35,860 bases of DNA from Myxococcaceae bacterium. GTDB taxonomy: Bacteria; Myxococcota; Myxococcia; Myxococcales; Myxococcaceae. The notes below the pieces were generated by a model. It was not told the origin of the DNA. It made no database searches and worked only from the letters and a program-made list of their open reading frames with translations. This document shows, piece by piece, positions 574 through 35,860 of the stretch (within the stretch, counting starts at the first letter, position 1; each line of letters begins with the position of its first letter). The translations under genes were made by a program, and so were the position numbers. The stretch covers positions 1 to 35,860 of the forward strand of contig JALHOS010000026.1 of the NCBI GenBank assembly GCA_022842905.1. Direction: 5' to 3'.

Positions 574-2136
574 CTACGAGCTGCACGACAGGGCGCTACA
601 CCCCGGCTTGTCCTTGGCCCAGTCCGGCCGCGGCCGCGCGAACCGCTCCTTGCCGGGCTGCTCCACGTACGGGCGCTGCAGCACTTCGAACAGCTCGTGC
701 AACAGGGACAGCTCACCCTGCTCGGCCGCGTCGATGGCCTCCTGCGCGAGGTAGTTCCGCAGTACGTACTTGGGGTTCGCGGCGTGAAGTCGCGCCGTCA
801 GCTCGTCGACGGTGCCTTCGCGCCGAGCTCGCGTCCGCCAGCGCTCGAGCCACGCGGTCAGCGCCGCGCGGTGGTCGGCGGGCACGGCCGCAGGTTCGTA
901 GAACGCCTGCTCGAGCGGCGCGGCGTCCTCGGTCCGCAGCGCCGCGCTCAGCGCGCGGAAGAAGTTCGTCATGTCCGTCTCGACGCTCGCCAACAGCCGC
1001 AGCACGTCCTGCGCGAGGGTGCGGTCGTCCTGGTCTTCGAGCTGCGTGAGCCCCAGCTTGCCCGCCAGCGCACGCGTGTACTCGAGCTCGAACGTGCGCT
1101 CGAACGTCTGGAGCCCGTCGACCAGCGGCTGCTCCGTCGGCAGCAGCGGGGCCAGCGCGACCGCCAGGCGTTCGAGGTTCCACAGCGCGACGGCCGGTTG
1201 GTTGCGGTAACGGTAGCGTCGGCTCTGCGCGTCGGTCGTGTTCGGCGTCCAGTCGGGGTCGAAGTCGTCGAGCCAGCCGTACGGCCCGTAGTCGATGGTG
1301 AGGCCCAGCACCGACATGTTGTCGGTGTTCATCACGCCGTGGACGAAGCCGACCCGCATCCAGTGGGCCATGAGGACGGCGGTGCGGCGGCAGACCTCGG
1401 CGAAGAAGGCAGCGGTGGCGTCGGGCCCGGGGGCGCCGAGCTCCGGGAAGTGGGTGCTGACGGTGTCGTCGACGAGCTGCCGGAGCAGGGTGTGGTCCTC
1501 GCGCGCGGCGAGCAGCTCGAAGTTGCCGAAGCGCAGGAAGGTGGGCGCGACGCGGCAGACGATGGCGCCGGGCTCTGGGCGCGGGTTGCCGTCGTAGAGC
1601 AGGTCGCGCACGACGTCTTCGCCGGTCGCCACGAGCGACAGCGCGCGGGTGGTGGGTACGCCGAGCGCGTGCATCGCCTCGCTGCAGACGAACTCGCGCA
1701 ACGACGAGCGCAGCACCGCTCGTCCGTCTCCGCGGCGCGAGTACGGGGTGGGACCGGCCCCCTTGAGCTGGAGCTCCTGCCGGCCGTGCTCGCGGGTGAG
1801 CAGCTCTCCGAGGACGATGGCGCGGCCGTCGCCGAGCTGCCCGGCCCAGCTGCCGAACTGGTGCCCGCCGTAACAGGCCGCGTACGGCTTCATGCCCGGC
1901 CACAGCCCGTTGCCGCCGAACACGCGCGCGAAGTCGTCGGAGCGAACCACCGCGTCGTCCAGGCCCAAGAGCGCGGCGACGGACGGCGAGTGCGCGAGGA
2001 GCCTGGGCGCCTTCACCGCCGTCGGCTCGACGAAGGAGTACGCGGCGCCGGTCACCTGGCGGGAACGGTTCTCGGTCGACGGGTCCGCGGGCAGGGCACG
2101 CACGAAGCGCGCGTCGAAGACGGGGAGGGAGCTCAC
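574..2136 (-). CDS. selO: Protein adenylyltransferase SelO (YdiU/UPF0061)
   Basis: This 520-residue protein matches the SelO pseudokinase family, which transfers AMP from ATP to Ser/Thr/Tyr of target proteins, mainly in redox homeostasis. Visible signatures are the N-terminal [22 protein letters not shown] block, the nucleotide-binding lysine K125 (LQLKGAG), E148 (SLREF), the active-site loop HGVMNTDN with D272 and N273, and D282 (TIDYG). The K-to-E spacing of 23 and D-to-D spacing of 10 equal those of the characterised Pseudomonas SelO. The C-terminus ends CSALSCSS, the family's redox-active tail, with Cys where eukaryotic homologues carry selenocysteine. The start is GTG at 2136; the next residues ([18 protein letters not shown]) match the usual N-terminus. 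It is divergent from the Coa1-like gene. Confidence 0.96.
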
Positions 2137-2255
2137 GCAGCACTGCGTATGTCCACGAGTCGGCCGGGGTGCAAGCCAACGTACGCGCGCTCTCTGCCAG
2201 ACCAGCGGGCGGTGCTTTGCGGCGGAGCCCAGGCCGTGGTCTCTTGCCGCTCCAG

Positions 2256-2738
2256 ATGAGCCGTCGCCCTCCCGTCACGTTCGCCCGAACGCGCACCACG
2301 ACGGACAACCAGAGCTTCCTCGACGTGCGCAACACGCGGCTCTTGCCGCGGCACTGGGGCTGGTGGCTGGCGCTGGCCCTGGCGGCGCTCTCCTCGGTCG
2401 CCGTCGTCGCCCTCTACCTGCGCGCGGGCTACGTGGCGGGCACGCTGGAAGAGCACCCCGTCTACGTCGGCAGCCTGAAGCGTGCGAACGACCACCCCGA
2501 CGCACGGGCCGAGCTGGGCAGCCCCATCGTCGGCAGCCGCGTGCAGCGCGTGGAAGAGTCGTGGCTGAGCGGCGAGACGCACCTGCAGTTCGACGTCGAA
2601 GGGCCGCGGGGGGCCGGCCGCATCGACGTCGTCGCGCAGGGGAACGAGCCCGACTCGCTGCTCATTCTGCGGATGAAGCTGACGGTGTCCGGGCCGAGCC
2701 GTCGTGTCATCGCGTTGGACGGGCCGATCAAGCGCTGA
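2256..2738 (+). CDS. Coa1-like membrane protein (cytochrome oxidase assembly factor family)
   Basis: The 160-residue protein has a cytoplasmic basic N-terminus ([15 protein letters not shown]), one transmembrane helix at about residues 29-50 ([20 protein letters not shown]) and a soluble C-terminal domain. The soluble part carries the Coa1 family pattern: an ELGSPI core, a central strand region, then [12 protein letters not shown] with conserved glycines. Eukaryotic Coa1 helps assemble cytochrome c oxidase; the role of bacterial members is unknown. The frame is open back to an ATG/GTG at 2169, but that adds 29 low-complexity residues ([14 protein letters not shown]), so I chose ATG 2256. No clear Shine-Dalgarno site is seen. 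No cytochrome oxidase genes are nearby, so the context does not test the assembly role. Confidence 0.72.
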
Positions 2739-2881
2739 CACTTCGTTGGCCGCTCCAGCCGCAAGGCGATCGAACTGCGCTCCGGTCGCGCCTCCATGAG
2801 CTGAGTGCATTTTCTGCGTGCCGGTCGCGACGGCTCTCGTCAGCAGCGAACGTGGCCCTGCCGTTGCACCCGCGCACGGCC

Positions 2882-5800
2882 ATGCCGCAACAGACGGTGA
2901 CGGTCGACGCGAACGAGGCGGTCGCGGCCATTGCGCATCGCCTCAGTGAAGTCATTGCCATCTACCCCATCACGCCGAGCAGCAGCATGGGTGAGCTCGC
3001 CGACGAATGGAGCGCGCAGGGGCGCACCAACGTCTTCGGCCAGGTGCCGAAGGTGGTGGAGCTCCAGAGTGAGGGCGGGGCCGCTGGCACGCTCCACGGC
3101 GCGTTGCAGGGCGGGGCGCTGGCGACGACCTTCACCGCGTCGCAGGGCCTGCTGCTCATGCTGCCGGACATGCTGAAGATTGGCGGCGAGCTGACGCCGC
3201 TGGCCATGCACGTCGCCGCGCGCAGCTTAGCCACGCACGCGCTGTCCATCTTCGGGGACCATTCGGACGTGATGATGGCGCGGGGCACCGGCTTCGCGCT
3301 GTTGTGCAGCAGCTCGGTGCAAGAAGCGCCGGACTTCGCCGCGGTGGCCCACGCTGTCACGCTGCGCGCGCGCATTCCGTTCCTGCACTTCTTCGACGGC
3401 TTCCGCACCAGCCACGAGGTCAGCCGCATCGACGCGCTGGACGACCAGGCGCTGCGCTCGCTGCTCGACGCCAAGGCGCTGTCCGACTTCCGCCGCCGCG
3501 CGCTCACGCCGGACGCGCCGGTGCTGCGAGGCACCGCGCAGAACCCCGACACCTTCTTTCAAGCCCGCGAGGCCGGGAACCGCTTCTACGCCGCGACGCC
3601 AGGCCTCGTGCAGGCCGCCTTCGACGAGCTGGCCGCGCTCACCGGGCGCCAGTACCGGCTGTTCGACTACGTGGGCCACCCGCAGGCCGAGCGCGTCGTG
3701 GTGCTGATGGGGTCCGGCGCCGAGGCCGTGCGCGAGACGGTGGACTGGCTGGTCGCGCGTGGAGAGAAGGTGGGCGCCGTCATCGTCCGGCTGTTCCGCC
3801 CCTTCGACGGCGCCGCGCTGCTGTCGGCGCTGCCGGCGAGCGTGAAGACGATCGCCGCGCTCGATCGCACCAAGGAGCCCGGCGCGCTGGGCGAGCCGCT
3901 GTACCAAGACGTCATCACCGCGCTGGCCGAAGGCGACCGCGGTGTGCGCGTCGTGGGCGGGCGCTACGGCCTGTCGTCCAAGGAGTTCACCCCGGCGATG
4001 ATCCGCGCCGTCTTCGACAACCTGGCGCTGCCGAGGCCGAAGAACCACTTCACCGTCGGCATCACCGACGACGTGACGCACACCTCGCTGCCCTACGACG
4101 CCGAGTTCGACCTGGAGCCCAACGACGTCGTGCGCGCGGTGCTGTTCGGGCTGGGCAGCGACGGCACGGTGTCGAGCAACAAGCAGACGATCAAGATCAT
4201 CGGCGAGTACACGCCCAACTACGCCCAGGGCTACTTCGTCTACGACTCGAAGAAGTCGGGGGCGATGACGGTCTCTCACCTGCGCTTCGGGCCCCGGCCG
4301 ATCCGCTCGTCGTACCTCATCAAGCACGCCAGCTTCGTCGCCTGTCACTACGCGCCGCTGCTCGAGCGGCACAACGTGCTCGACGCCGCCGCGCCGGGCG
4401 CCACGTTTCTGCTCAACACCCACCACGACAAGGCCACCGCGTTCGCCGCGCTGCCGCTCGAAGTGCAGCAGACGATCCTCGACAAGAAGCTCAAGTTCTT
4501 CGTCATCGACGCTTTCGCCGTCGCGAAGGACGTGGGCCTGGACCGCTACATCAGCGCGGTCATGCAGGTGTGCTTCTTCAAGCTCTCCCACGTGCTGCCC
4601 ATGGACGAAGCGCTGACGCACCTGCGCGCGAGCGTGGAGAAGGCGTACGGCAAGCGCGGCACGGAGGTCGTGCGGCGCAACCTGCTCGCGCTGGAGCAGA
4701 GCCTGGGGCGGCTGCAGGAAGTGACGGTGCCCAAGGTCGCCACGGGTACGCCCAGGCCCCCGCCGGTGCCCAAGGCCGCGCCGGACTTCGTGCAGCGGGT
4801 GACGGCCGCCATGCTCGCTGGCCACGGTGACGCGCTGCCGGTGAGCGCCTTCCCCATCGACGGCACGTGGCCCACCGCCACGACCCAGTGGGAAAAGCGC
4901 GCCGTCGGCTTGGAGGTGCCCGCCTGGGACGCGCCGCTGTGCATTCAGTGCAACAAGTGCTCGCTCATCTGCCCGCACGCGGCCATTCGCGCGCAGCTGG
5001 TCGACCCCTCCGACGCGACGAAGGCGCCCAGCGCGTTCAAGACGGTGCCCTTCAAGGCAAAGGAGCTGGGCCAGGCCCCGTCGGGCCAAGGCTGGCTGTA
5101 CGCACTGCAGGTCGCGCCGGACGACTGCACCGGCTGCGGGCTCTGCGTGGCGGTCTGCCCGGCCAAGGACAAGTCCAACCCGCGGCACAAGGCCATCGAC
5201 ATGAAGCCCGTCGAGCCGGTGCGCGCGCAGGAACGCGAGAACTGGGACTTCTTCTCGAAGCTGCCGCACGTCGACCGCGCCAAGGTGCCGTCGGACCTCA
5301 AGTCGTCGCAGTTCCTCGAGCCCTTGTTCGAGTTCTCCGGCGCGTGCGCGGGCTGCGGTGAGACGCCGTACCTCAAGCTGCTCAGCCAGCTCTTCGGTGA
5401 CCGGCTCCTCATCGCCAACGCCACCGGCTGCAGCAGCATCTACGGCGGCAACCTGCCGACGACGCCCTGGGCGAAGAACAAGGACGGCCGCGGGCCGGCG
5501 TGGGCCAACTCGCTGTTCGAGGACAACGCCGAGTTTGGCCTGGGCCTCAAGCTCGCGGTCGACGCGCGGCGACAGCTGGCCAGCGCGCTGCTCAAACAGC
5601 ACGGCGGGCACCTGGGCGACGAGCTGGTGACGGGCTTGCTCGAGGCGGATCAGTCCGACGAGGGAGGGCTCGCCTCGCAGCGGTCTCGCGTCGCCGCGCT
5701 CAAGGCCAAGCTCGCCGGCGTCGCCACTGACGACGCGAGGCTGCTGCACGAGCTGGCCGACGCGCTGGTGAAGAAGTCGGTGTGGCTCGTCGGCGGCGAC

Positions 5801-6439
5801 GGCTGGGCGTACGACATTGGCTACGGCGGGCTCGACCACGTGCTGGCCAGCGGCGCCGACGTCAACGTGCTGGTGATGGACACCGAGGTGTATTCGAACA
5901 CCGGCGGGCAGCAGTCCAAGGCCACGCCGCTGGGCGCCGCTGCGAAGTTCGCCGCCGCCGGCAAGTCCATGGGCAAGAAGGACCTGGGCCTGCTCGCCAT
6001 GTCCTACGGGCACGTCTACGTGGCGAGCGTGGCGATGGGCGCGAAAGACGCGCAGACGCTCAAGGCGCTCAAGGAAGCCGAGAGCTACCCCGGGCCGTCG
6101 CTCGTCATCGCCTACAGCCACTGCATCGCCCACGGCTACGACATGGAGCGCGGCGCGGAGCAGCAGAAGCTGGCGGTGGAGTCCGGCGTCTGGCCGTTGT
6201 ACCGCTTCGACCCCAGGCTGGTGGCGACCGGCGCGCCGCCGCTCCAGCTCGACTCCGGGCCGCCCAAGGTGAAGCCGCGGGACTACATGAAGAACGAAGG
6301 GCGCTTCCGCATGGTGGCGCTCAAGGACCCCAAGCGCTTCGACCGGCTCGTGGAGGCAGCCGAGCGGCTGGCCGCGCAGCGCCGCGCCATCTACGAGCAG
6401 CTCGCGCACGTGCACGTCTCGACGAAGGAGCACAGCTGA
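2882..6439 (+). CDS. nifJ: Pyruvate:ferredoxin (flavodoxin) oxidoreductase, single-chain
   Basis: This 1185-residue protein has the full single-chain PFOR layout. It would oxidise pyruvate plus CoA to acetyl-CoA and CO2 and reduce ferredoxin or flavodoxin. Domain I opens VTVDANEAVAAIAH then AIYPITPSSSMGE. Domain II follows (residues about 250-400), then the gamma domain. The ferredoxin-like insert has two 4Fe-4S motifs, CIQCNKCSLICP from C687 and CTGCGLCVAVCP from C749. The proximal cluster starts at CAGCGE (C822), followed by the ATGCSSIYGGNLPTTPW block. The thiamine-diphosphate site is GDGWAYDIGYGG (about 973) with DTEVYSNTGGQQSKATP. Length agrees with NifJ/PFOR. ATG 2882 was chosen because TVTVDANEA is the usual N-terminus; an in-frame GTG at 2852 is less likely. 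The DHOD-like gene starts one base after its stop, so the two are probably one operon. Confidence 0.97.
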   Translation: MPQQTVTVDANEAVAAIAHRLSEVIAIYPITPSSSMGELADEWSAQGRTNVFGQVPKVVELQSEGGAAGTLHGALQGGALATTFTASQGLLLMLPDMLKIGGELTPLAMHVAARSLATHALSIFGDHSDVMMARGTGFALLCSSSVQEAPDFAAVAHAVTLRARIPFLHFFDGFRTSHEVSRIDALDDQALRSLLDAKALSDFRRRALTPDAPVLRGTAQNPDTFFQAREAGNRFYAATPGLVQAAFDELAALTGRQYRLFDYVGHPQAERVVVLMGSGAEAVRETVDWLVARGEKVGAVIVRLFRPFDGAALLSALPASVKTIAALDRTKEPGALGEPLYQDVITALAEGDRGVRVVGGRYGLSSKEFTPAMIRAVFDNLALPRPKNHFTVGITDDVTHTSLPYDAEFDLEPNDVVRAVLFGLGSDGTVSSNKQTIKIIGEYTPNYAQGYFVYDSKKSGAMTVSHLRFGPRPIRSSYLIKHASFVACHYAPLLERHNVLDAAAPGATFLLNTHHDKATAFAALPLEVQQTILDKKLKFFVIDAFAVAKDVGLDRYISAVMQVCFFKLSHVLPMDEALTHLRASVEKAYGKRGTEVVRRNLLALEQSLGRLQEVTVPKVATGTPRPPPVPKAAPDFVQRVTAAMLAGHGDALPVSAFPIDGTWPTATTQWEKRAVGLEVPAWDAPLCIQCNKCSLICPHAAIRAQLVDPSDATKAPSAFKTVPFKAKELGQAPSGQGWLYALQVAPDDCTGCGLCVAVCPAKDKSNPRHKAIDMKPVEPVRAQERENWDFFSKLPHVDRAKVPSDLKSSQFLEPLFEFSGACAGCGETPYLKLLSQLFGDRLLIANATGCSSIYGGNLPTTPWAKNKDGRGPAWANSLFEDNAEFGLGLKLAVDARRQLASALLKQHGGHLGDELVTGLLEADQSDEGGLASQRSRVAALKAKLAGVATDDARLLHELADALVKKSVWLVGGDGWAYDIGYGGLDHVLASGADVNVLVMDTEVYSNTGGQQSKATPLGAAAKFAAAGKSMGKKDLGLLAMSYGHVYVASVAMGAKDAQTLKALKEAESYPGPSLVIAYSHCIAHGYDMERGAEQQKLAVESGVWPLYRFDPRLVATGAPPLQLDSGPPKVKPRDYMKNEGRFRMVALKDPKRFDRLVEAAERLAAQRRAIYEQLAHVHVSTKEHS

Positions 6440-6440
6440 C

Positions 6441-7439
6441 ATGGCGATCCTCACCACGACGTGGCTGGGCCAGACCTTGGCGCACCCGCTCATCGCCGGG
6501 GCGTCGCCGTTGGTGGACGACCTGGACACGGTGCGGCGGCTCGAAGACGCGGGCGCCGCCGCCATCACCATGCACTCGCTGTTCGAAGAGCAGCTCGTCA
6601 GCGAGCAGCTCGCCATGCACCGCCACGTCGACGGCTGGCGCGGCATGAACGCCGAAGCGGCGGACTGGCTGCCGGGCACGGCGGACTTCCTGCTGGGGCC
6701 GGACCAATACCTCGAGCAGCTGCGCAAGGTGCGCGAGGCGGTGAAGGTGCCCGTCATCGGCTCGCTCAACGGCTCCACGCCCGGCGGCTGGCTCGCGTAC
6801 GCGAAGCTCATGGAGCAGGCCGGCGCGCACGCGCTGGAGCTGAACCTCTACGCGCTGCCGTCGGACCCGGCGCGCTCGGCCGGCGAGGTGGAAGAGGAGC
6901 AGCTGTCCATCGTCCGGCAGGTGGTGGCGTCCGTGCGCGTGCCGGTGGGCGTGAAGCTGTCTCCGTTCTACTCGTCGCTGCCGCACTTCGCGGCGCGGCT
7001 GGCGGGCGCTGGCGTGAGCGGCCTGGTGCTCTTCAACCGGCTCTACCAGCCCGACGTGAACCCCGAAGCGCTCGAGGTGGACCGGGTGCTCAAGCTGTCG
7101 GACGCGAGTGAGCTGACGCTGCGGCTGCGGTGGCTGGCGATCCTCTCGGCGCACGTGCAGGTGTCCTTCGCGGTCAGCGGCGGCGTGCACGACGGCCGCG
7201 GCGCGGTGAAGGCGCTCATGGCCGGCGCCAGCGCGGTGCAGGTGGTGTCGGCGCTGCTCCAGCACGGCCCGGGGCGCCTCAAGCAGCTCAAGGACGAGCT
7301 GACGAGCTGGCTGCACGAGCACGAGTACGTGTCCGTGCAGCAGTTGGTGGGGAGCATGAACTTGGCGCGGGTGCCGGACCCGTCGGCGTACGAGCGGGCG
7401 AACTACGTGAAGCTGCTGCAGGGGTGGCACAAGCGCTGA
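6441..7439 (+). CDS. Dihydroorotate dehydrogenase-like flavoprotein
   Basis: The 332-residue TIM-barrel protein resembles the 'dihydroorotate dehydrogenase-like' group often found next to nifJ. Recognisable parts are the N-terminal substrate-side LAHPLIAGASPL, ELNLYALPSDP, the strand VPVGVKLSPFYSSL, LVLFNRLYQPDV and the phosphate-binding end of the barrel (FAVSGGVHDGRGAVKALMAGASAVQV). The class-1 DHOD motif NxSxPN is replaced by ELNLYALPSDP and no catalytic Cys is seen there, so it probably does not make orotate. FMN binding is inferred from the fold. It starts one base after the nifJ stop (TGAC then ATG), which implies co-translation and a shared role, perhaps an auxiliary redox step for the PFOR pathway. 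The substrate is unknown. Confidence 0.9.
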   Translation: MAILTTTWLGQTLAHPLIAGASPLVDDLDTVRRLEDAGAAAITMHSLFEEQLVSEQLAMHRHVDGWRGMNAEAADWLPGTADFLLGPDQYLEQLRKVREAVKVPVIGSLNGSTPGGWLAYAKLMEQAGAHALELNLYALPSDPARSAGEVEEEQLSIVRQVVASVRVPVGVKLSPFYSSLPHFAARLAGAGVSGLVLFNRLYQPDVNPEALEVDRVLKLSDASELTLRLRWLAILSAHVQVSFAVSGGVHDGRGAVKALMAGASAVQVVSALLQHGPGRLKQLKDELTSWLHEHEYVSVQQLVGSMNLARVPDPSAYERANYVKLLQGWHKR

Positions 7440-7468
7440 GCGCGGACCCGAGCGACGGACAGGTGCGC

Positions 7469-7482
7469 GCCACCGCGGTGGC
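7469..7482 (+). terminator. Perfect palindrome 30 nt after the nifJ-DHOD-like operon
   Basis: GCCACCGCGGTGGC is a perfect 14-bp palindrome shortly after the stop at 7439. As RNA it gives a 5-bp GC stem. No U-tract follows, so intrinsic termination is only a guess; an operator for the next gene is the alternative. Confidence 0.25.
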
Positions 7483-7517
7483 CAAGCCGCGCTTCGTTCG
7501 GCACACTCACCCGTCCA

Positions 7518-10500
7518 ATGGCTCGACGAACGACGCCGACTGACGCGGGCTGGCGGCTCCGCTCCCTCGAAGGCGCGTACGGCCTCTTTCGCCGTCTCCC
7601 CGCGAGCGTCCGCCGGAGGATGCAGCCCACGCCCAGCGTCGCGCTCACACCGTCGCGCCGCGCTGCCATGGCCCAGACCGACGCCCCTGGCCAGGGTGGC
7701 AGTGGCGTGGGGACGACACGTCGGCCCTTGTCTGCGTCGAACTCTGGGGGGCTTCCCGCTGACTCGAGCCATTCCGCGCTCGCACCGTCGCGCCGCGCTG
7801 TCGGTGCGCCGACCGACGCCTCGGCCGGCGACGGAGTCAGCAGGACTCGACCCCGCTCGCTCGCCTTCACCGCGCCGCTCGTGCTCCTGCTGGCCTGCCA
7901 ATTCGAGGCAGGGTTGCCGGCCGGCGCGGCGATCCGCTGCGTCGACGGTGCGTGCCCGACGGGCTACGCGTGCCGCGCCCAAGTCGGCCTCTGCGTGCCG
8001 AACGCCTCGGGGCCGAGCACGGCGCCGCGCATCGTCTCGGCGGAGGTCTCCCCGAGTCACGCGCGCGACGGCAGCACCGTCACGGTGCGGCTGGTCGTCG
8101 ACAAGCCGCTGCTCAGCCCGCCGGCGGTGATGCTGACCGACGCGCGCGGCGTCACCCGCCTCACGCGCACTGGCGGCGACGCGCTGGAGCACGAGTACAC
8201 CTCCGTGGTGGACCAACGTGAGCACGCCGAAGGGCTGGCGCGTCTCACGGCGGACCTGGTGGACGTGCAAGGCACCGAAGCCTTGGCGCAGCCGGTCGGC
8301 ACCACCGAGCTCGACTTCACGCCGCCCGCGCTGCTCGAGGCGGCCTTCAGCGCCCCGCGCCAAGGCAACGACGCCGGGGTGCTCACCGTGCGCCCGAGCG
8401 AGCCCGTCGCCGTGCGTGTGTCTCTGTCGGAGCCGCTGCGTCCAGGCGCGGCCCTGCGCCCCACCGGCACCTGCGACGGCGGCGTGGCCTTCGAAGTGCG
8501 CTCCGAGCGGTCCGGGTTGCTGGACTTCGCCTCGCGCCCCGTTGCGTCCGCTGACTGTGAGCTGCGCCTGAGCGTCGAGGGCGCGGTGGACCTCGCCGGC
8601 AACGTCGCTCCGGCGCTTGCGTTGCCGCTGCTCCTGCGGGTCGATGGCGTCCCGCCGGTCATCTCCACCTTCACCCTGCGCGGCGTGTCCGACGCGGGGA
8701 GCGTGCCCGCACGCACGTTCAGCCGACAGCCAGGCTTCGACCGGTTCGTCCTCCAGGCGGAGGTCGACGGCACCGCCGTGCACACCGAGCTGCAGCTCGA
8801 CGACGCGCCGCTCGTGGGCTGTACCTGCGCGCCGACGCGGTGTGACTGCGGCGGCCAGGTCGGCGCCGCGGCCATGGAGGGCACGCACGTCTTCAAGGTC
8901 CGCACTGAAGACCTGGCGGGCAACCCCTCGACGCAGTCCATCGAGGTCCGCTTCGACTTCACGCCGCCCGCGCTGGTCCCTTCGTCCGTGCACCTGGGCG
9001 TGCGTGCCCCTGTGGACTGCCCCCTCGCCGCGACGCCCGCGCTGGCGGCCGCCGGGGCCGTCGAGCTCGACTTCTCGGTGGACGAAGCCGCCACGGCGCA
9101 GGTCGACGCTCAGCCTGCGGCCGTCACCTGCACGCCGACGTCCAACACCGCCACACACTTTGCGTTCCGAGGCCGCGCGTTGGACGGGGGCAGCACGCCG
9201 TCCGTTCAGCTCCTCGCCCGGGTCACCGACGCGGTGGGCAACTCGGCGGCGCTGCCGCTCGGCGCGCCGTTCGCCATCGACGTCGACGCGCCGGCCGCTG
9301 CCGACGCCACCACCCCCGGAGCGCTGGCCTTCGAGCGCGTCCCCTGGGGCACCGCCGATGCGGGTCCTTCCTTCACGCTGGTGGGGCGCGCCGGCGTCGC
9401 CGAGCGAGGCACGACGCTGCAGGTCCTCGAAGGCGCCGTGCCCATCGCGCTGGCGCCGGTGTCCGACGCCGGCTTCTCGGTGCCGCTCGGCGTCGACCGG
9501 CGCAGCTTGGCGGTCCGCGTCTACGACGAGGCATGCAACGCCAGCGCACCGACTCGCGTGCGCGACGTCGAGTGGCGCGCGTCGCTCGCCGGCAAGCGAC
9601 GGGGGCGTACGTTCGAGAACCCACACACGCTCGAGCGCCGCGAGCCGTTCGCGCCCACGACGACCCAGGCGATTTGGGCGACGGAGGAGACGCTCGACCA
9701 GCCGCTGGTCCAGGAAGCGGGCCTCACCTTTCGGCCGCCGAGCCTCACCCCCCGCGGTCGCACGGACCCTGGCTTCGTCGCCGACCCCGCCCGCGGCAAG
9801 CTGCTCGTGTTCGGCGGCGTCAACATCCCCTCGGTCAACGGGTACAACGACGAGCTGTTGGAGTGGGACTTGTCGACGCGGTCCTGGACGAGCCGCACGC
9901 CGGTGCCGCGACCTCAGGCTTGGCCCACCGCCCGACAGGGCGGCGTGGTGGTGTTCGACGCCCACCGGCAGCGGCTGGTCGTCTTCAGCGGGCAGGGGCC
10001 CACCGTTTCGGACGACCTGTGGGAATGGGAGCCCGTGACGGGGCTGTGGACCAACCGCACCCCATTCCCCAGGCCCACCGTGTGGCCTTCGCGCCGCGAC
10101 TTCGCGAACGCCGTCTTCGACGACGTCCGGAAGCGGGTCGTCGTGTACGGAGGCCGACTCGCCGGCGCGACCACCTCGACGGCGGAGCTGTGGGAGTGGG
10201 ACGGCGCTGACGGCTCGTGGACCAACCGCACGCCCACGCCCCGCCCTCCCTCGTGGCCGGCGCCGCGCGACGGCGCGAAGGCCACCTTCGACAGCGCCCG
10301 TGGGCGGTTGGTGTTGTTCGGCGGCTGGACCGGCGGCACCACGCTCGACGAGCTGTGGGAATGCGACTTGGCCACCGCGACGTGGACCAACCGCACGCCC
10401 ACGCCGCGCCCCACGCAGTGGCCGCGCTTCGCGATCAGCCTCACGTTCGACTCGGTCCGTGGGCGCGTCATCTTGTACGGCGGGAGCCAGGTGAACGACG

Positions 10501-12026
10501 AGCTGTGGGAGTGGGACGGCGCGACCGGCAGCTGGACCGGCCTCACCCCGACGGTGCGCCCGCCGACGTGGCCGTCGGGCAACGTGCAAGCCATCACCCA
10601 CGACCCCGCGGGGCAGCGGGTGATGGCGCTGACCGACCTCCAGTTTTCGAACGCGTTCATCGAGTACGACCAAGACGCTGGGGTCTGGACGCCGATCGTC
10701 GCCACGCAGTCGCCCTCGTTCGCGCCAGGTATCCGCCACCACGTCTTCACCTTCGACTCGCGCCGAGGGAAGGCCGTGGCCTTTGGAGGCTTCGACTCGG
10801 TCTCTCGAAGCAGGGCCGTCTTCGAGTGGGACCGCGGAACCGGTGCGTGGGTGAACCCGGCGCCCTCGTCACTCCCGCCTTCGTGGCCGACGCCGCGCGC
10901 GCTGGCGGCTGGGGTGTTCGACCCCGTGGCGGATCGCACGCTGGTGTTTGGGGGCTCGGACAACTCCGGCTTGCGGGGTGACCTGCTCGAGTGGAACGGT
11001 GACGCCGGGACGTGGACCACCCGGAGCCCGACCGCCGGCTGGCCGACGCCTCGCTACAAGCACGCCATGGCGTATGACGCCGATCGCCGCGTGGTGGTGC
11101 TTTTCGGTGGCGTTGCGGGGAGCATCTTCACGGCGCTGTCGAGTGAGCTGTGGGAGTGGTCGTCGACGACGGCCACGTGGACGAATCGGACACCGACGCC
11201 TCGCCCGTCCGCGTGGCCCGCCGCGCGAGAAGGCCACGGCCTGACCTACGACGCGCCGCGCAGGAAGATGGTCCTCTTCGGAGGTCTGACTGGCCCGACG
11301 CCGGCGAACGACCTGTGGGAGTGGGACATCACGAGCGCCACCTGGACCAACCGCACGCCCAGCCCGCTGCCGGCGCAGTGGCCGGGTCCACGAGAGACGG
11401 CCGGCTTCACCGCGGACCCAGCGCGCGGCGTCGTCCTCTTGTTCGGTGGCGGCAGCGGCGCACCGGACGAGCTGTGGGAATGGAACGGGCAGACGGGCGT
11501 GTGGACCGAGCGTAGCAAGGTGCCCCGGCCCCCCGGCTGGCCGAGCGGCCGCCTCGCGCCGGGCTTGGCGTTCGAACCCGAACGGAAGGTGCTGCTGCTC
11601 CACGGGGGCATGGGCACGTACGGGCCGCTGCCGGAGCTCCACGTGCTCGGCGTCGACCTCGAGCGGGCGCCCGGCATCGTCGCGCGCTTCACCTTCGCCG
11701 CTTCGGGGGCGAGCCCCCAGGTCGAGCTCCAGGGCGCCACGGTCGAGGTGCGCGCCGGCGCGCGCGCAGGCCAGCAGCCGTCGGCAGGGGCAGCGCTGCT
11801 GGTCAGCCACGGCGACGTGCTGAGCCGTGAGCACACCGGCTCGTCGGCGGCCCCCGAAGCGCTGTCGTGGACCACCACCGACCCCGTCAGGCTCCGCGCG
11901 CTGTTCGAAGGCCCCGAGCGCTGGGTGAGCGTGGGCGTGACGCCGCGTGGCCGGAGCAGCCCCGAGCAGCTGGCGGCGGTTCGGCTCGACTGGGTGGAGC
12001 TGACGGTGCGCTACCGGGTGCCTTGA
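7518..12026 (+). CDS. Large surface lipoprotein with Ig-like domains and about 11 Kelch-like repeats
   Basis: The open frame gives 1502 residues. A hydrophobic segment ending LVLLLAC puts a lipobox cysteine at residue 127, followed by the Cys-rich motif RCVDGACPTGYACRAQ..GLC common after lipoboxes in myxobacterial lipoproteins. Residues about 150-700 hold Ig-like/bacterial-adhesin-type repeats with recurring DFTPPAL and DVDAPAA junctions. Residues about 750-1375 hold about 11 repeats of the form LWEWD..T..WTNRTP.PRP..WP..R....FD..R.R.V.FGG, a Kelch-type beta-propeller consensus. A beta-rich C-terminal domain of about 110 residues follows. It is probably exported and lipid-anchored, with an adhesive or ligand-binding role. 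The start is unresolved: 7518, 7620, 7668, GTG 7707 and TTG 7728 are all in frame, but each leaves a long non-hydrophobic extension before the lipobox. No good Shine-Dalgarno site decides between them. Confidence 0.88.
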   Translation: MARRTTPTDAGWRLRSLEGAYGLFRRLPASVRRRMQPTPSVALTPSRRAAMAQTDAPGQGGSGVGTTRRPLSASNSGGLPADSSHSALAPSRRAVGAPTDASAGDGVSRTRPRSLAFTAPLVLLLACQFEAGLPAGAAIRCVDGACPTGYACRAQVGLCVPNASGPSTAPRIVSAEVSPSHARDGSTVTVRLVVDKPLLSPPAVMLTDARGVTRLTRTGGDALEHEYTSVVDQREHAEGLARLTADLVDVQGTEALAQPVGTTELDFTPPALLEAAFSAPRQGNDAGVLTVRPSEPVAVRVSLSEPLRPGAALRPTGTCDGGVAFEVRSERSGLLDFASRPVASADCELRLSVEGAVDLAGNVAPALALPLLLRVDGVPPVISTFTLRGVSDAGSVPARTFSRQPGFDRFVLQAEVDGTAVHTELQLDDAPLVGCTCAPTRCDCGGQVGAAAMEGTHVFKVRTEDLAGNPSTQSIEVRFDFTPPALVPSSVHLGVRAPVDCPLAATPALAAAGAVELDFSVDEAATAQVDAQPAAVTCTPTSNTATHFAFRGRALDGGSTPSVQLLARVTDAVGNSAALPLGAPFAIDVDAPAAADATTPGALAFERVPWGTADAGPSFTLVGRAGVAERGTTLQVLEGAVPIALAPVSDAGFSVPLGVDRRSLAVRVYDEACNASAPTRVRDVEWRASLAGKRRGRTFENPHTLERREPFAPTTTQAIWATEETLDQPLVQEAGLTFRPPSLTPRGRTDPGFVADPARGKLLVFGGVNIPSVNGYNDELLEWDLSTRSWTSRTPVPRPQAWPTARQGGVVVFDAHRQRLVVFSGQGPTVSDDLWEWEPVTGLWTNRTPFPRPTVWPSRRDFANAVFDDVRKRVVVYGGRLAGATTSTAELWEWDGADGSWTNRTPTPRPPSWPAPRDGAKATFDSARGRLVLFGGWTGGTTLDELWECDLATATWTNRTPTPRPTQWPRFAISLTFDSVRGRVILYGGSQVNDELWEWDGATGSWTGLTPTVRPPTWPSGNVQAITHDPAGQRVMALTDLQFSNAFIEYDQDAGVWTPIVATQSPSFAPGIRHHVFTFDSRRGKAVAFGGFDSVSRSRAVFEWDRGTGAWVNPAPSSLPPSWPTPRALAAGVFDPVADRTLVFGGSDNSGLRGDLLEWNGDAGTWTTRSPTAGWPTPRYKHAMAYDADRRVVVLFGGVAGSIFTALSSELWEWSSTTATWTNRTPTPRPSAWPAAREGHGLTYDAPRRKMVLFGGLTGPTPANDLWEWDITSATWTNRTPSPLPAQWPGPRETAGFTADPARGVVLLFGGGSGAPDELWEWNGQTGVWTERSKVPRPPGWPSGRLAPGLAFEPERKVLLLHGGMGTYGPLPELHVLGVDLERAPGIVARFTFAASGASPQVELQGATVEVRAGARAGQQPSAGAALLVSHGDVLSREHTGSSAAPEALSWTTTDPVRLRALFEGPERWVSVGVTPRGRSSPEQLAAVRLDWVELTVRYRVP
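7641..7820 (+). repeat. 45-bp direct repeat pair 135 bp apart
   Basis: Segments 7641-7685 and 7776-7820 match at 38 of 45 positions (both begin GCGCTC.CACCGTCGCGCC and end ACCGACGCC). They are offset by exactly 135 bp, so they repeat in frame as ALxPSRRAxxxxTDA in the doubtful N-terminus of the Kelch lipoprotein. They could instead be two copies of a dispersed intergenic repeat, which would mean the real start codon lies downstream. Confidence 0.6.
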
Positions 12027-24310: not shown

Positions 24311-25792
24311 ATGGCGATGCAGCGGCTGGGACGGCCCTCCCTTGGGCTGTCGCGTGGAGGGTTGTCGTCGGGTGCCCGGTCCGCGGCGCCCGCTCCGCCG
24401 GTCGGCGGCCTGCGCGCGGCCCCGGCTCTGGATCAGCGTCAGGCCCAGCGCGGCGCTGCGCGCGACACCTTCGAGGCGGCGCCGCACGCAGGGGGCGTCA
24501 ATTTGAACGGGCGCTCGGCGGCTTCGCTGGCGCCGCGCGATGTGGGCGCCGGCTCCTTGCGCTCGACGCAGGATTCGCTCGGCGGCGCGCCGCTGCTGGC
24601 TCCCGCCGCTCCGACGCTGGCTCGCGCCGCCCCGACGTCGTCCCCCGTCGCATCGACGCTGGCCCCCGCCGCATCAACGCTGGGTCCCGCCGCATCAACG
24701 CTGGGCCCCGCCGCATCGACGCTGGCCCCCGCCGCACCGTTGCTGTCGCCCGCCGCGCTGACGGCGTCTCCTGAGGTGCCCGAGGCGACGCAGACGCCGG
24801 AACAGCTGGCTCAGGCGCTCACCGACGAGCAGAAGCTGCAGCTCGACCAGGCCTTGGCTCCGTTGAACGACCTGCCCCGCGACGAGCAGGCGAAGCGGCT
24901 GGAGGAGCTCGTTGCCAAGCTCAAGGCCACTCACCCGGAGCTCGCGGCGTACCTCGAGGCGCTCTGGCGCAAGGCGGCGCGGGGCGAAGACATCAGCGCG
25001 GACCTCGCGGCGCTCGGTGCGGCGCCACGGACTTCAGGTGCCGCGCCATCCGGGCCGAGCCCGGAGCCGTCGAGCGCGGGCGAGCGGCCGGGGCCCCGTC
25101 GCGCCTCAGGCAGTGACGGACGTGACGGCGGTGGCGGACAAGGGCAGGGGAGTGGCCGGGCCGGGGGTCGAAAGCGCTCGGGCGGCGGCGGCGGCGCGGG
25201 TCGCTCTGGGGGCGCCGGGGGTGGTGAGGACACGGGCGGCGCCGAGGAGGCCGACAACGACGTGCAGGGGGCGAGCGTCTCTGGAGGCCACGCGCACGAC
25301 GCGGGTGACCCGCAGGCCGTGTCCAGCCTCGAAGGTGCGGTGCCGGGCACGGGGCCGACGGAAGGGCTGCAGGTGGATCCGCGCCTCCAGGGCGCGCTCG
25401 AGGCCATCGCCAAAGACCCCGAGGGCGCGAAGCTGCTCGAGGCGGCCAAGGCGGCGGGGCTCACGTCCATCACCGTGAACCCTGGGCTTCCCGAGGGCAC
25501 CGCGGGCGTCGCGCGCTTTCCTGCTGGCGGCGGCAGCTCGTCGATCGAGATCAAAGACCCAAACAGCCCCGCGCTCATTCACACCCTGGTGCACGAGCTG
25601 GGACACGCGGCGACGCCGCACGACGGCAACTCCCTGGCCGAAGAGAAGGCGGTCGACGCCATCGGCGCGCGCGTGCACGAGCGGTTGACCGGGCGGCCGT
25701 CGGGCTTTCAGCTGAACGTCGAGGCGTACCGCGGGCTGCGGCTCGAGAACGACGTGCGCCACAGCCTCCGGCGCATCGGCATCGCCGCGTGA
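24311..25792 (+). CDS. Zincin-type (HExxH) metalloprotease with long low-complexity N-terminus
   Basis: The 493-residue protein has three parts. Residues 1-95 are Gly/Ala/Ser/Arg-rich. Residues 97-152 are eight copies of a 7-residue Ala/Pro repeat (AASTLGP type). A helical segment follows (about 155-215, with EEQAKRLEELVAKL-like heptads), then a Gly-rich stretch (about 260-320). The C-terminal domain (about 350-493) contains HELGH with H428, E429 and H432, followed by SLAEEKAVD, whose E445 fits a gluzincin third zinc ligand. No signal peptide or lipobox is seen. An exported or injected effector with a disordered N-terminus is one reading; a cytoplasmic protease is the other. I do not know the family. 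ATG 24311 was chosen because upstream sequence overlaps the divergent regulator and looks non-coding; ATG 24317 is an alternative. Confidence 0.8.
   Translation: MAMQRLGRPSLGLSRGGLSSGARSAAPAPPVGGLRAAPALDQRQAQRGAARDTFEAAPHAGGVNLNGRSAASLAPRDVGAGSLRSTQDSLGGAPLLAPAAPTLARAAPTSSPVASTLAPAASTLGPAASTLGPAASTLAPAAPLLSPAALTASPEVPEATQTPEQLAQALTDEQKLQLDQALAPLNDLPRDEQAKRLEELVAKLKATHPELAAYLEALWRKAARGEDISADLAALGAAPRTSGAAPSGPSPEPSSAGERPGPRRASGSDGRDGGGGQGQGSGRAGGRKRSGGGGGAGRSGGAGGGEDTGGAEEADNDVQGASVSGGHAHDAGDPQAVSSLEGAVPGTGPTEGLQVDPRLQGALEAIAKDPEGAKLLEAAKAAGLTSITVNPGLPEGTAGVARFPAGGGSSSIEIKDPNSPALIHTLVHELGHAATPHDGNSLAEEKAVDAIGARVHERLTGRPSGFQLNVEAYRGLRLENDVRHSLRRIGIAA
24599..24766 (+). repeat. Eight-unit 21-bp tandem repeat encoding heptapeptides
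   Basis: Eight units of 21 bp (24599-24619, then every 21 bp to 24766) encode APAAPTL, ARAAPTS, SPVASTL, APAASTL, GPAASTL, GPAASTL, APAAPLL and SPAALTA. The middle four are nearly identical in DNA, pointing to recent slippage or unequal exchange. Confidence 0.85.
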
Positions 25793-30979: not shown

Positions 30980-33900
30980 TCAGCCGCCGCGCCCGCCGTT
31001 GAGCGAATGCAGCACGAGCCCTCCGGCGCCGACGCCGAGCACGCGCGTCACCGAGCCGACGGACGCCGGGGTGCAGGACACCAGCGACGGAATGGAGCTG
31101 GCCTGGTTGGTGGGGAAGGCCGTCCACGTCGCGCCGTCGTCGGTCGACCGGTAGACCATGTCTCCGCTGGCCGCCAAGAAGGTGGTCCCGCCGAGGTGCT
31201 CGATGGTGCTGATGGTGTCGGTGATCACCCGTGTCCAGCTCGTGCCGTCGTTCGTCGACCGGTAGATGCCGTAGAGCACCAGGTTCGACTCCACCGCGGC
31301 GAGCAGCACGTTCGGCGTGCCCACCACCCGGCGAATGTTGATGTTGAGCGGCAAGCTCGGCGCCGTCGCGCTCGTGAAGTCCAGCGGCGTCGTCGTCACG
31401 AGCATGGTGCTGGTGTCCTTGTCGATTCGGTAGGCGACGCCACCGAACCCACCGACGATGGTGCGCTCCAGCGTGCCTTCGGTGAACAGCGCGACCGCGG
31501 TGAACGTGGTGGTGTCCACCGGCGAGAAGACGTGCGGCGTCCAGCTCGTGCCGTTCCAGAAGTTCGCCGTTCCGTTCGAGCCCACCGCGACGCAGCGTGA
31601 GCTCGTGGTGCAGCGAATCGACTGGAACCCGTTCACCGTGTTCGAAGTCTGCTGGGTGAACGTGGGGTTGGACACGTTCGCGTTCGTCGACCGGAAGATG
31701 CGGCCCTGGCCCCCCGACGCGCTGCCCACGACGAACAGGTCCGTCGTCGTCGGCATGGCGGCGTCGGTCATGCCGTTGAACGGAGCCGTCTGCGGCGTCC
31801 ACAGCGGGTTGAGGGTGTCCGGAGAACGGAACAGGCCGCTGGACGACAGCGCATAGGCCGCGCCGCAGGTCCGTGGCGTGGCGACGCTCGTCAAGTTCTC
31901 GAGGACGGCGGTGGCGATCGTCGCGTACGTGCCGGCGCCTGCGCTCGCGTAGAACACGTTGCCACTCGCGCCGACGACGGCGGTCTGGTTACCGGCCAAC
32001 CCCACGCCGGAGGTGAACGAGTAGAAGAGCCCGGTCTGAATCGACGGCCCGGTGGGCAGCGGGTCCGACGTGAGGGTCGTCCCCGTCAGCCGCCACAACG
32101 TCGCCGTCGAGCCGGTGCCCGCCGCGACACGCACGACGGTGCTCGACTCGCTGTTGAGCGCGGTCACCGCCGTGTTCAGCGAGGGCGAGGTCGACAAGGG
32201 CGCGAAGCTCGCGCCGGAGTCGGTGGAGATCAGCAAGGACGTGGTCCCCGTCCACGAGCCGCTGACGCCCAGCAGGAACGTCGTGGTCCCCGGCAGCGCC
32301 GTGGCTCGAGAGAAGTGCGTGCTCGAGCTCGTGTAGCCCGTCGGCGCCGTCACCGCGGCCCAGGTCGCGCCCCAGTCCGTCGACCGCAGAATCGTCCCGG
32401 CGTTGCCTCCGACGAGCAGCACGCCGTTGCAGGCAGCGGCGCCGCAGGCCGCCACCGTGTTGAGCTGCTGCGTCGTGCCAGAAGTGACCGACGTGAAGGA
32501 CAGCGGAATCAGGGAACCCGTGCCCGCGGGCCGGACCGAACGAACGATGAGCCCGCTCGCGCCCACGGCAACGCGGTAGCTGTTCGCTGCGTCGGCCCCT
32601 GCGTACGCCACGCCGTTGAGCGTGCGGCCCAGCGGGTCGTTGTACGTCGCGCGGCGGAACTCCGTGCCGTTCGTCGTGTGAGCAATGTGGGCGTTCTGGC
32701 CCACGGCGATGAGGAAGGAGGGGTCGCTCGACAGGCCGTTGATGGTGCCGTCGGTCAGCGGGTCGACTCGGATGAAGTCGAGGACCGGGGGGAGCACGCT
32801 GCGCCACATGTTGCCGTTCTCACCGCCATAGAAGAGCGAGGTGTTCGAACCCGGACCGCGGGACGCCGCGTTGAAGCGGCCGGTCGTCGGCAGACGGAAC
32901 GTCTGTTGGTACGGGTAGTGCGGTGTCCCGCTGGTCTGGGGCGCCTGGCCTTCGAGGCCCACGCCGTCCACCGACGCCAGGACGACGTAGTGGGTCAGCT
33001 CGTTCGCGAGCGTCAGCGTGTGGCTCGTGACGGTGCCGGGGAGCGGAATGAGCGGGTGGTACGGCCCGCCGGGCGTCGTCGAAGTCCACAGCCGGTATTC
33101 GGCGACGCCGGTGCCGTTGGGCCCGTCGCTCGACGGAGCCCACGAGAGCGTCAGCGTGCGGTGCCCGGCCACCACCGACGTGAGGATCGGCGCCGAAGGA
33201 GGCACCGTGTCGAACAGGATCAAGTCCGAGCCCGCAGCGCCCGACACGTTCTGCGCTCCGTCGCGCAGGTACACCAGGACGATGCGGCTGCCCTGGCTGG
33301 GAAGCGTGACGTCGAGCGGGCTCGCGAACGGCACGAAGCAGGGGTCGTTCGCGAGCGGCGGCGCGCTGACGGGATCGCCCAGGCGGGCGTGCCGCACGCA
33401 GAGCGCGGCGATGCCGGACGTGGTGGGCGTCGGCGTGACGGACTCGGCCGGGGTGATGGTGACGCTCACCACCGCGTCCGGCGTCGACGCGGCCCCACCT
33501 TCGATGAGCACCGTTGGTGCGGCGGGCGCCGTGCGGTCGAGCAGCACCTGCGCCGTCAGCGTGTTGCTCTCTCGGCCCGCCGCGTCGAAGAGCCGCGCCG
33601 TCAGGGTGCGCAGGCCGTCCGCAGCGCCAGCGAGCGGAACGCTGCCCAGCGCGGTGGCGAACGGCGTGAAGGTGGTGACGACGGCGCCGTCGTTGGTGAC
33701 GCGCGTGCCGGCCAGCCCGGAGCCCAGGTCGCTGCCTGCCACCGTACCGCCGCTGACGGCCAGCACGTTGGTGAACGGCGGCGCGGTGAAGCTGGTGAGG
33801 ATCGGATCCGCCGTGTCCACGCTGATGCCGTCGGTCTGCACCGCCGACATGTTCCCCGCGTTGTCGATGACGCGAATGAACGCGGTCTTCGTCCCGTCGG

Positions 33901-35860
33901 GGCCGGGGAAGGTGACGCTGGGGGTGGTGCTGTAGGGGCCGCAGTTGGTCGGCGGGTTCGTCGCGCCCACGCAGACCTGGGCGAGCCCGCTCAAGTCCGC
34001 CGCGACGACGTTGTCGAAGGTGACGGTGAGCGACTGGCTGTACGCCGCCCCGCTGGCCAAGGCGACGCTCGTGAACAGCGGGGCCGTGGTGTCCAGGGTG
34101 ATGTCGTCGAAGGCCGGGCTCACCGAGCGGTTGCCGACCGCGTCGCGGTACCAGACCCACACGCGCTTGAGCTGGTCGCCGTTGGGGAACAGGTGACCCG
34201 TGACGCTCAGCGGCTGGAAGCAGGGGCTGTTCGCCGACGGGGTCACGGGTTGGCCCGACGTGTTCTGCGACAGCGCGCAGGCGTGGGTGACGCCCGTGCC
34301 CGCGCCGTCGTCGTGGGTGAAGGTCAGCACCAGCTGCGGGTCGTTCGTGTAGAGGTTCGTCCCGTTGGCCTGCACCGCGCCGGTCAGCGGTGGCGTCGTG
34401 TCCAAGATGATGGTGTCGGTGACGATGAACTCGCGCATGGCGTCGTCACGGACGCGCATGGCGACGGTGCGCGTGCCGTCGGGGCCGGTCAGTGTCCACG
34501 AGCGGTTGCCGCTCCCGCCGGTCGACTGGCAGTCCTGAACCAGGAAGACGAGGGAGTTCGAGAAGCAGACCTCGGTCACCGTGGCTCCGCCGCTCGAGCT
34601 CGCCGTGTAGTCGAGCGTGACGAGCGTGTTCCCGGTCGCGTTCGCGCCGGCGTTGATGGTGAGCGTGCCGGACACCGCGCCGCCGACGACGGTGAAGGCG
34701 GTGGTGGCGCCGGCGAACGGCGCCCAGGCGCTCGGCAGGCCGGCTGCGTCCTTCGCGCGCGCCTGCCACTTGTAGGCACCGACGGCGAGCGACGGCAGGG
34801 GCACCGAGACGGCGCCTTCAGGCTGCAGCGTGCTCTGGTGCGTGGCGACGTTGGTGAAGGGCGAAGCGACGAGCTGGACTTCGACCTCGAGGCTCACCGA
34901 GGTGTTCTCCGGGTCGTCGAGGTCGGCGCGCAGCGTCGGGCTGCTCGTGAGCACGGCGCCGGCGTCGAGCGGCGAGCCGCCGGCGTTCACCATGCGCAGG
35001 CCCGAAAGCGAAGGGGCCGCGTTCGGCGGCGGCGAGACGGTGAGGAGGAAGCTGCGCGCCGCGGTGGCCATCAGCGCGTCTCGCGCGGTGACGCTCACCG
35101 TGACCGACTCGGCGATTGACGTGCCGGGGCTCAGCGTCAGCGTGCTCCCGGTGAGAGTCGCGTAGGCGGGCAGGCTCGTCCCGAGGAAGGTGATGGCGTC
35201 GCCGTCTGGGTCCGTTGCCACCAGGCTCACCTGCCGCGTCGTGCCCGCGGTCATCGTCACGTCCGAGAGCGCGTCGAAGCTCGGCGGTCGGTTCGTGTTC
35301 GAGACGATGAGCACGAAGGAAGACGGGACCGGGGCGTTGACGCCGTCCGAGACCGTCCAGGCCACCGAGTACATGCCGCTGTCGGTGAAGCCCGGGGCGA
35401 TGGTGAGCGTCGCGCCGACGCGCGTGACGAACGCCGGGGCGCTGGTCAGGGCGAAGGTCAGCATCGTGGAGTCGGGATCGGTCGCGCTCAGCGTGACGTT
35501 TGTCGTCGCGCCTTCGGCGACGGTGGTCATAGAGACTTGGTTGGGGACCGGCGGTTGATTCGCGGAGCCGCCCGCGCCGGCAGAGCCGCCCGCGCCCGCC
35601 GAGCCACCAGCACCAGCCGAGCCTCCAGCACCAGCCGAGCCTCCAGCACCAGCCGAGCCTCCAGCACCAGCCGAGCCTCCAGCACCAGCCGAGCCTCCCG
35701 CACCAGCCGAGCCTCCCGCACCAGCCGAGCCACCTGCGCCAGCCGAGCCTCCCGCACCAGCCGAGCCTCCCGCACCAGCCGAGCCACCTGCGCCGGCAGA
35801 GCCACCTGCACCGGCAGAGCCACCCGCACCGGCAGAGCCTCCAGCACCAGCCGAGCCACC
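30980..35860 (-). CDS. Giant surface protein: Gly/Ala/Ser linker, Ig-like domains, FN3, BNR/YCF48-like propeller (partial)
   Basis: The frame is open to the right edge, giving 1626 residues without the N-terminus or signal. Residues 1-98 are (AGAGGS)n. Two cadherin/Ig-like domains follow at about 111-278 (VTLSATDPDSTMLTF, TRQVSLVATDPDGDAITF), then a domain to about 390. Next are five Ig-like repeats ending in DTTPP, DTTAP, DTADP, DRTAP and DTVPP. One fibronectin type III domain lies at about 885-985 (TLTLSWAPSSDG, VLASVDG). The last 620 residues form a propeller of BNR/YCF48-like blades (RSTDWGATW, STDSGASF, RSTNDGTSW, RSTDDGATW). It ends LHSLNGGRGG. It is an extracellular or cell-surface binding protein. 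The reading start at ATG 35530 seen in isolation is internal because the frame continues upstream. Confidence 0.9.
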   Translation of the reverse strand, partial: GGSAGAGGSAGAGGSAGAGGSAGAGGSAGAGGSAGAGGSAGAGGSAGAGGSAGAGGSAGAGGSAGAGGSAGAGGSAGAGGSAGAGGSAGAGGSAGAGGSANQPPVPNQVSMTTVAEGATTNVTLSATDPDSTMLTFALTSAPAFVTRVGATLTIAPGFTDSGMYSVAWTVSDGVNAPVPSSFVLIVSNTNRPPSFDALSDVTMTAGTTRQVSLVATDPDGDAITFLGTSLPAYATLTGSTLTLSPGTSIAESVTVSVTARDALMATAARSFLLTVSPPPNAAPSLSGLRMVNAGGSPLDAGAVLTSSPTLRADLDDPENTSVSLEVEVQLVASPFTNVATHQSTLQPEGAVSVPLPSLAVGAYKWQARAKDAAGLPSAWAPFAGATTAFTVVGGAVSGTLTINAGANATGNTLVTLDYTASSSGGATVTEVCFSNSLVFLVQDCQSTGGSGNRSWTLTGPDGTRTVAMRVRDDAMREFIVTDTIILDTTPPLTGAVQANGTNLYTNDPQLVLTFTHDDGAGTGVTHACALSQNTSGQPVTPSANSPCFQPLSVTGHLFPNGDQLKRVWVWYRDAVGNRSVSPAFDDITLDTTAPLFTSVALASGAAYSQSLTVTFDNVVAADLSGLAQVCVGATNPPTNCGPYSTTPSVTFPGPDGTKTAFIRVIDNAGNMSAVQTDGISVDTADPILTSFTAPPFTNVLAVSGGTVAGSDLGSGLAGTRVTNDGAVVTTFTPFATALGSVPLAGAADGLRTLTARLFDAAGRESNTLTAQVLLDRTAPAAPTVLIEGGAASTPDAVVSVTITPAESVTPTPTTSGIAALCVRHARLGDPVSAPPLANDPCFVPFASPLDVTLPSQGSRIVLVYLRDGAQNVSGAAGSDLILFDTVPPSAPILTSVVAGHRTLTLSWAPSSDGPNGTGVAEYRLWTSTTPGGPYHPLIPLPGTVTSHTLTLANELTHYVVLASVDGVGLEGQAPQTSGTPHYPYQQTFRLPTTGRFNAASRGPGSNTSLFYGGENGNMWRSVLPPVLDFIRVDPLTDGTINGLSSDPSFLIAVGQNAHIAHTTNGTEFRRATYNDPLGRTLNGVAYAGADAANSYRVAVGASGLIVRSVRPAGTGSLIPLSFTSVTSGTTQQLNTVAACGAAACNGVLLVGGNAGTILRSTDWGATWAAVTAPTGYTSSSTHFSRATALPGTTTFLLGVSGSWTGTTSLLISTDSGASFAPLSTSPSLNTAVTALNSESSTVVRVAAGTGSTATLWRLTGTTLTSDPLPTGPSIQTGLFYSFTSGVGLAGNQTAVVGASGNVFYASAGAGTYATIATAVLENLTSVATPRTCGAAYALSSSGLFRSPDTLNPLWTPQTAPFNGMTDAAMPTTTDLFVVGSASGGQGRIFRSTNANVSNPTFTQQTSNTVNGFQSIRCTTSSRCVAVGSNGTANFWNGTSWTPHVFSPVDTTTFTAVALFTEGTLERTIVGGFGGVAYRIDKDTSTMLVTTTPLDFTSATAPSLPLNINIRRVVGTPNVLLAAVESNLVLYGIYRSTNDGTSWTRVITDTISTIEHLGGTTFLAASGDMVYRSTDDGATWTAFPTNQASSIPSLVSCTPASVGSVTRVLGVGAGGLVLHSLNGGRGG
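35565..35860 (-). repeat. 18-bp minisatellite encoding AGAGGS (16 units, continues off the edge)
   Basis: Sixteen full 18-bp units run from 35565 to 35852, plus 8 bp of the next. The plus-strand consensus is GAGCCTCCAGCACCAGCC; four consecutive units are identical, others differ at one to four positions. Every unit keeps the coding frame and encodes Ala-Gly-Ala-Gly-Gly-Ser, a flexible linker. Length may vary between strains. Confidence 0.95.

Follow-up and report, generated by a model that had tools for sequence, protein, structure and literature searches.

The DNA analysed in this work (hereafter the window) is a stretch of 35,860 nucleotides from a Myxococcaceae bacterium, corresponding to contig C26 of a draft assembly that totals 7.85 Mb over 667 contigs, and it contains a gene for a kelch/Ig-like lipoprotein downstream of a gene for a dihydroorotate dehydrogenase-like protein (Table 1). 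The kelch lipoprotein ORF is given as 7518-12026 in the ORF listing; its frame carries no stop across 7440-8000 and stays open to 12026, with 1,394 open codons from 7842 to the stop, and coding composition, assessed in 99-nt windows, begins at roughly 7800-7840. Position 7842, used here as the first coordinate of the gene body, stands for a presumed start zone with no proven start codon.

Table 1. Features of the kelch lipoprotein locus, in window coordinates.
Feature	Position	Strand	Evidence
Upstream neighbour, dihydroorotate dehydrogenase-like protein	6441..7439	+	NCBIfam NF005741
Stop-free stretch in frame with the kelch gene, probably untranslated	7518..7841	+	GC3-GC2; no Pfam or NCBIfam match
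Direct repeat copy 1	7640..7692	+	Repeat search, gapped alignment
Direct repeat copy 2	7775..7826	+	Repeat search, gapped alignment
Kelch/Ig-like lipoprotein gene body, signal-peptide n-region to stop	7842..12026	+	Coding composition, Pfam, 17-paralogue alignment
Signal peptide RTRPRSLAFTAPLVLLLA without start codon	7842..7895	+	Paralogue alignment; AGG 7842 a weak candidate for the lost-start site
Lipobox cysteine codon, LLA-C	7896..7898	+	Cysteine invariant in 18/18 aligned sequences

The encoded protein shares strong profile matches with kelch-repeat beta-propellers (PF24681, PF24981 and PF13415), its kelch repeats scoring above the Pfam gathering score (PF24681, E 7.2e-63; PF13415, E 1.2e-45), and its eight sequence matches include solved LZTR1, muskelin, KLHDC10 and KLHDC3 chains. 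Unlike those beta-propellers, it is bacterial and combines a lipoprotein signal with an Ig-like region, the latter showing a weak, sub-threshold Big_13 match in Pfam. A second very large ORF of the window (30980-35530, minus strand, 1516 aa) displays weak, sub-threshold Big_13 Ig-like and Sortilin-Vps10 matches. At its N-terminus, the kelch protein resembles Sec/signal peptidase II lipoproteins in its Arg-containing n-region, hydrophobic core and lipobox, which was read by eye as SLAFTAPLVLLLA followed by the cysteine, and this residue aligns with the cysteine of the paralogues. The lipobox LLA-C is close to L-[A/S/T]-[G/A]-C, given for Myxococcus xanthus lipoproteins in PMC3222651; compared with the lipoproteins catalogued there, the window gene differs in having no start codon and in carrying L at position -2. 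As a Sec/signal peptidase II lipoprotein, the product would be processed and lipidated at this cysteine.

According to the initial annotation, this lipoprotein has no plausible start close to its lipobox, and the distribution of start codons confirms it. From 7440 to the cysteine codon, the in-frame ATG, GTG and TTG codons are ATG 7518, ATG 7620, ATG 7668, GTG 7707, TTG 7728 and GTG 7881, situated 126, 92, 76, 63, 56 (168 nt) and 5 codons upstream of the cysteine, respectively; no usable start was found between 5 and 56 codons upstream, whereas relatives have theirs at 14-27 codons.

These relatives were obtained by searching the same genome with the 287 residues from 7839 onwards, which gave 23 matches; five of them were left out as interior, second or contig-edge pieces (L030, L032, L033, L034 and L036), leaving the window gene and 17 paralogues. 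The window protein shares with this family the lipobox cysteine, a C-x-F motif, a Cys-rich stub and the Ig-like region, with 25-43% identical positions across as many as 300 residues, and the alignment contains 12 invariant columns, with the cysteine, the C-x-F and the Cys-rich stub common to all members. In every paralogue (17/17) the cysteine is preceded, at a distance of 14-27 codons, by an ATG or GTG, whereas the window member has none: 12 paralogues have it at 14-17 codons (16 in L022), three at 18, one at 24 and one (L026) at 27. The start of each relative was picked by the analyst from the codons available. Furthermore, a profile search in 145 genomes of the order, including that of the window, gave matches at E 1e-15 in at least 5 of the 144 other genomes; from 12 rows in other genomes, three second pieces (L095, L101 and L103) were dropped, and the nine remaining relatives, from five genomes, all start with ATG or GTG 15-24 codons before the cysteine, one of them (L089) with an alternative TTG at 17 codons. 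Judged from these sequences, the missing near start of the window gene is more than chance, because all 17 paralogues and all nine further relatives (26/26) possess a near ATG or GTG. No orthologue proper appeared among the matches listed from 95 other genomes of the family at E 1e-30 or, using the long protein, from 39 other genomes at E 1e-100; the 40 closest genomes searched include none of the same genus as the window genome, and a named genome collection provided two kelch proteins with 31-34% identity and no orthologue proper, so that no intact version of the window gene was encountered. Two short DNA matches of the signal-peptide stretch (C292 and C5) were set aside, since the frames in which they fall do not encode a lipoprotein of this family further on.

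One explanation, considered in the initial annotation as an unusually long N-terminus, is translation from ATG 7518 (or from 7620, 7668, GTG 7707 or TTG 7728), which would place an Arg/Pro/Ser-rich n-region of 56-126 residues before an internal lipoprotein signal. The frame is open, as this explanation requires, and a CACACT element 10 nt before ATG 7518 resembles, by eye, elements found before some paralogue starts. The composition of the stretch was evaluated with GC3-GC2, a training-free measure, which gave 0.056 for 7518-7841, lower than all the paralogue coding segments (32/32, minimum 0.241; 32 of 34 possible segments were long enough and open), and 0.278 for the signal peptide 7842-7895. 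The upstream segments of the 16 of 17 paralogues with 324 nt of upstream DNA, which may include ends of neighbouring genes, had a mean of -0.034 and a maximum of 0.176, with 4/16 exceeding the value of 7518-7841. Codon usage agrees with GC3-GC2 less sharply and is an indecisive second test: 7518-7841 scored -0.08, which is close to the upper end of the values for upstream segments (-0.79 to 0.06) and below the 17 coding segments (0.06 to 0.40), and values down to -0.55 occur in some segments of the window that are known to be coding. Windows inside 7506-7670 reach +0.07 to +0.19 bits per codon, in favour of the long n-region, and weak or recent coding of the stretch may occur. Regarding its translation, no significant relative was found in the own genome beyond the stretch itself (next E 0.24), plasmid records gave no match, and marginal matches at E 0.001-0.008 per genome in at least 5 of 95 other family genomes were taken as chance among GC-rich translations. 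The initial annotation proposed a comparison of N-termini among orthologues as a check; of the 26 relatives compared here, none needs a long extension. Because relatives start near the cysteine and 7518-7841 lacks coding composition by GC3-GC2, a long N-terminus is disfavoured; we consider it unlikely, and the stretch is probably untranslated. Long stop-free stretches above genes occur elsewhere in this GC-rich window: the pyruvate:ferredoxin oxidoreductase-like ORF 1892-6439 is free of stops over the 330 codons preceding ATG 2882, its likely start, and a gene caller could overextend it.

The region between the distant starts and the cysteine also contains a direct repeat pair, pointed out in the initial annotation, which turned out to be real: two 46-nt copies (7640-7685 and 7775-7820), 85% identical and spaced by 135 nt, are lengthened by gapped alignment to about 53 nt, with a score reached by 0/1000 dinucleotide shuffles. 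A pair of this kind is not unique in the window, where 2/78 tiles of the same size contain an internal repeat with a higher score, and two tandem repeats were also observed in the window (24595-24768, with a 21-nt unit in 8 copies, or a 63-nt unit in 2.8 copies; and 35565-35857, with an 18-nt unit in 16.3 copies). As counted by eye, the copies of the direct repeat differ at all three codon positions, therefore giving no pointer to a conserved protein. An extension of the repeat homology into the signal peptide was discarded, the rest of the 135-nt units scoring 15 against a shuffle mean of 15.2. Four pieces of the region displayed fold z-scores of -0.01 to 0.70, not beyond shuffles, thus providing no sign of a structured leader or of structure in the repeat region, and neither an Rfam match at gathering score nor a tRNA was found in the window.

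The position of the repeat pair, just upstream of the gene, is compatible with the insertion of a mobile or spreading intergenic repeat that displaced the native start, as had been suggested. Several dispersed copies characterize a mobile intergenic repeat, but among the matches listed from the genome no copies other than the local pair have a clear score, the next ones being partial and weak both in the DNA search (E 0.005; best 40 of 94 candidates) and in the search with a two-copy profile (E 0.02; best 150 of 2190 candidates); on these results, the repeat was rejected as a genome-wide element. Moreover, copy 2 ends at 7820-7826, 15-21 nt before 7842 and ahead of the usual start zone (7842-7854), so the absence of a start is not easily accounted for by the repeat; copy 2 and the start would overlap only if the native start lay as far upstream as that of L026, which corresponds to 7815 in the window. 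The n-region beside the usual start zone is intact. Displacement by a mobile repeat is therefore unsupported, and we regard it as very unlikely.

Spacing in the paralogues would put the native start within 7815-7854, mostly within 7842-7854. In this interval, a GGAG lies five nt upstream of AGG 7842; GGAG-like 4-mers in the right interval occur at 30/415 positions of the region and in 3/17 paralogues. A register test in which the start letters were left out placed 7854 first among 17 registers and AGG 7842 fourth; the paralogue match that scored best, at a register other than 7842, was chance-like (8% of random sets do as well); the test is weak, with the true start ranked first in only 4/17 paralogues, and a lost start fixed at AGG 7842 was not borne out by it. 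An ungapped match to the start region of L028, chosen post hoc, had its best register within 7400-7900 at 7842 (12/17 letters). AGG 7842 may be retained as a weak candidate for the lost-start position, without the site being fixed. Upstream DNA common to the paralogues was sought in 34 tests, the best results (L028, 1/200 shuffles; L021, 2/200) being treated as chance, in the case of L028 because a genome search with its stretch did not recover the window. No sigma-70-like promoter or terminator was found in 7300-8000.

The same GGAG, together with the open and coding-like frame downstream, is consistent with an unusual but functional non-standard start codon near 7842-7854. To our knowledge, AGG has not been established as a natural start codon. 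Among other non-standard codons, ATA, ATT and ATC are named as starts in Listeria in PMC13068326, but these three and CTG are absent in frame from 7741 to 7880, making a functional start of this kind quite improbable. Equally improbable, in our estimation, is an indel located somewhere from 7804 to about 7850 that would have put a native start at GTG 7804 out of register. This codon lies about 30 codons before the cysteine in another frame that is stop-free in 7440-8000; however, such a distance surpasses that of any of the 26 relatives (27 at most), GTG 7804 sits within repeat copy 2, and its frame scores negative in 7680-7841 and in 7842-7895.

We infer instead that a start was lost at the usual distance from the cysteine. 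The window gene would be an ordinary member of the multi-copy kelch/Ig-like lipoprotein family of its own genome, with a native start 14-27 codons before the cysteine, most likely at 14-18 (about 7842-7854), as in the relatives compared (15/17 paralogues start within the latter range). This start would be absent either because the organism carries a small lesion there, such as a changed base or a short indel, or through a consensus error in the draft assembly. We consider this reading reasonably probable, and within it the present data fit a genuine lesion and an artefact of assembly equally. The small deletion or frameshift put forward in the initial annotation falls within this favoured class, although no frameshift is demonstrable. 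As for a pseudogene, i.e., a gene that has lost a part needed for its expression, no start was seen, and the remaining frame is open and coding-like. If the lesion is real, the gene would be silenced or very weakly translated, and the lesion would be recent, because the codons from 7842 to the stop all remain open.

The family itself amounts to about 18 copies in one genome (L015-L029, L031, L035 and the window gene) and looks like a lineage-specific expansion; several of its copies lie at contig ends (C318, C18, C236, C41 and C221). In 6/17 paralogues (L015, L016, L018, L021, L022 and L027), a TANNNT hexamer is present in the 30 nt that precede the start codon, 13-19 nt ahead of it, compared with 2/194 pieces of equal length taken farther upstream; shuffled sequences gave a mean of 0.3 (maximum 2, 500 shuffles), and a relative from another genome (L085) displays TACAGT eight nt before its GTG start. 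This motif, noticed post hoc, suggests very short or absent leaders, and hence near-leaderless transcripts, in part of the family. In the window gene no TANNNT was found in 7440-7900, an absence that says little since in 11/17 paralogues, too, the 30 nt before the start contain no such motif. That the window gene has been reversibly switched off at its start codon, as a silent copy kept in reserve for a variable surface protein, within an expanded, lineage-specific exported set in which some members have promoters ending at the start codon, seems to us very unlikely.

For annotation, these observations constitute a warning: a gene caller that follows the longest frame would extend this protein by an N-terminus of 126 residues, which is probably fictitious and could mask its lipoprotein nature. 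Such false N-terminal extensions arise easily where GC-rich genomes hold long stop-free stretches, and comparison with paralogues corrects them. The window gene represents an ordinary case in this respect, and the more interesting subject is the family of about 18 copies to which it belongs, some of them with TANNNT shortly ahead of the start.
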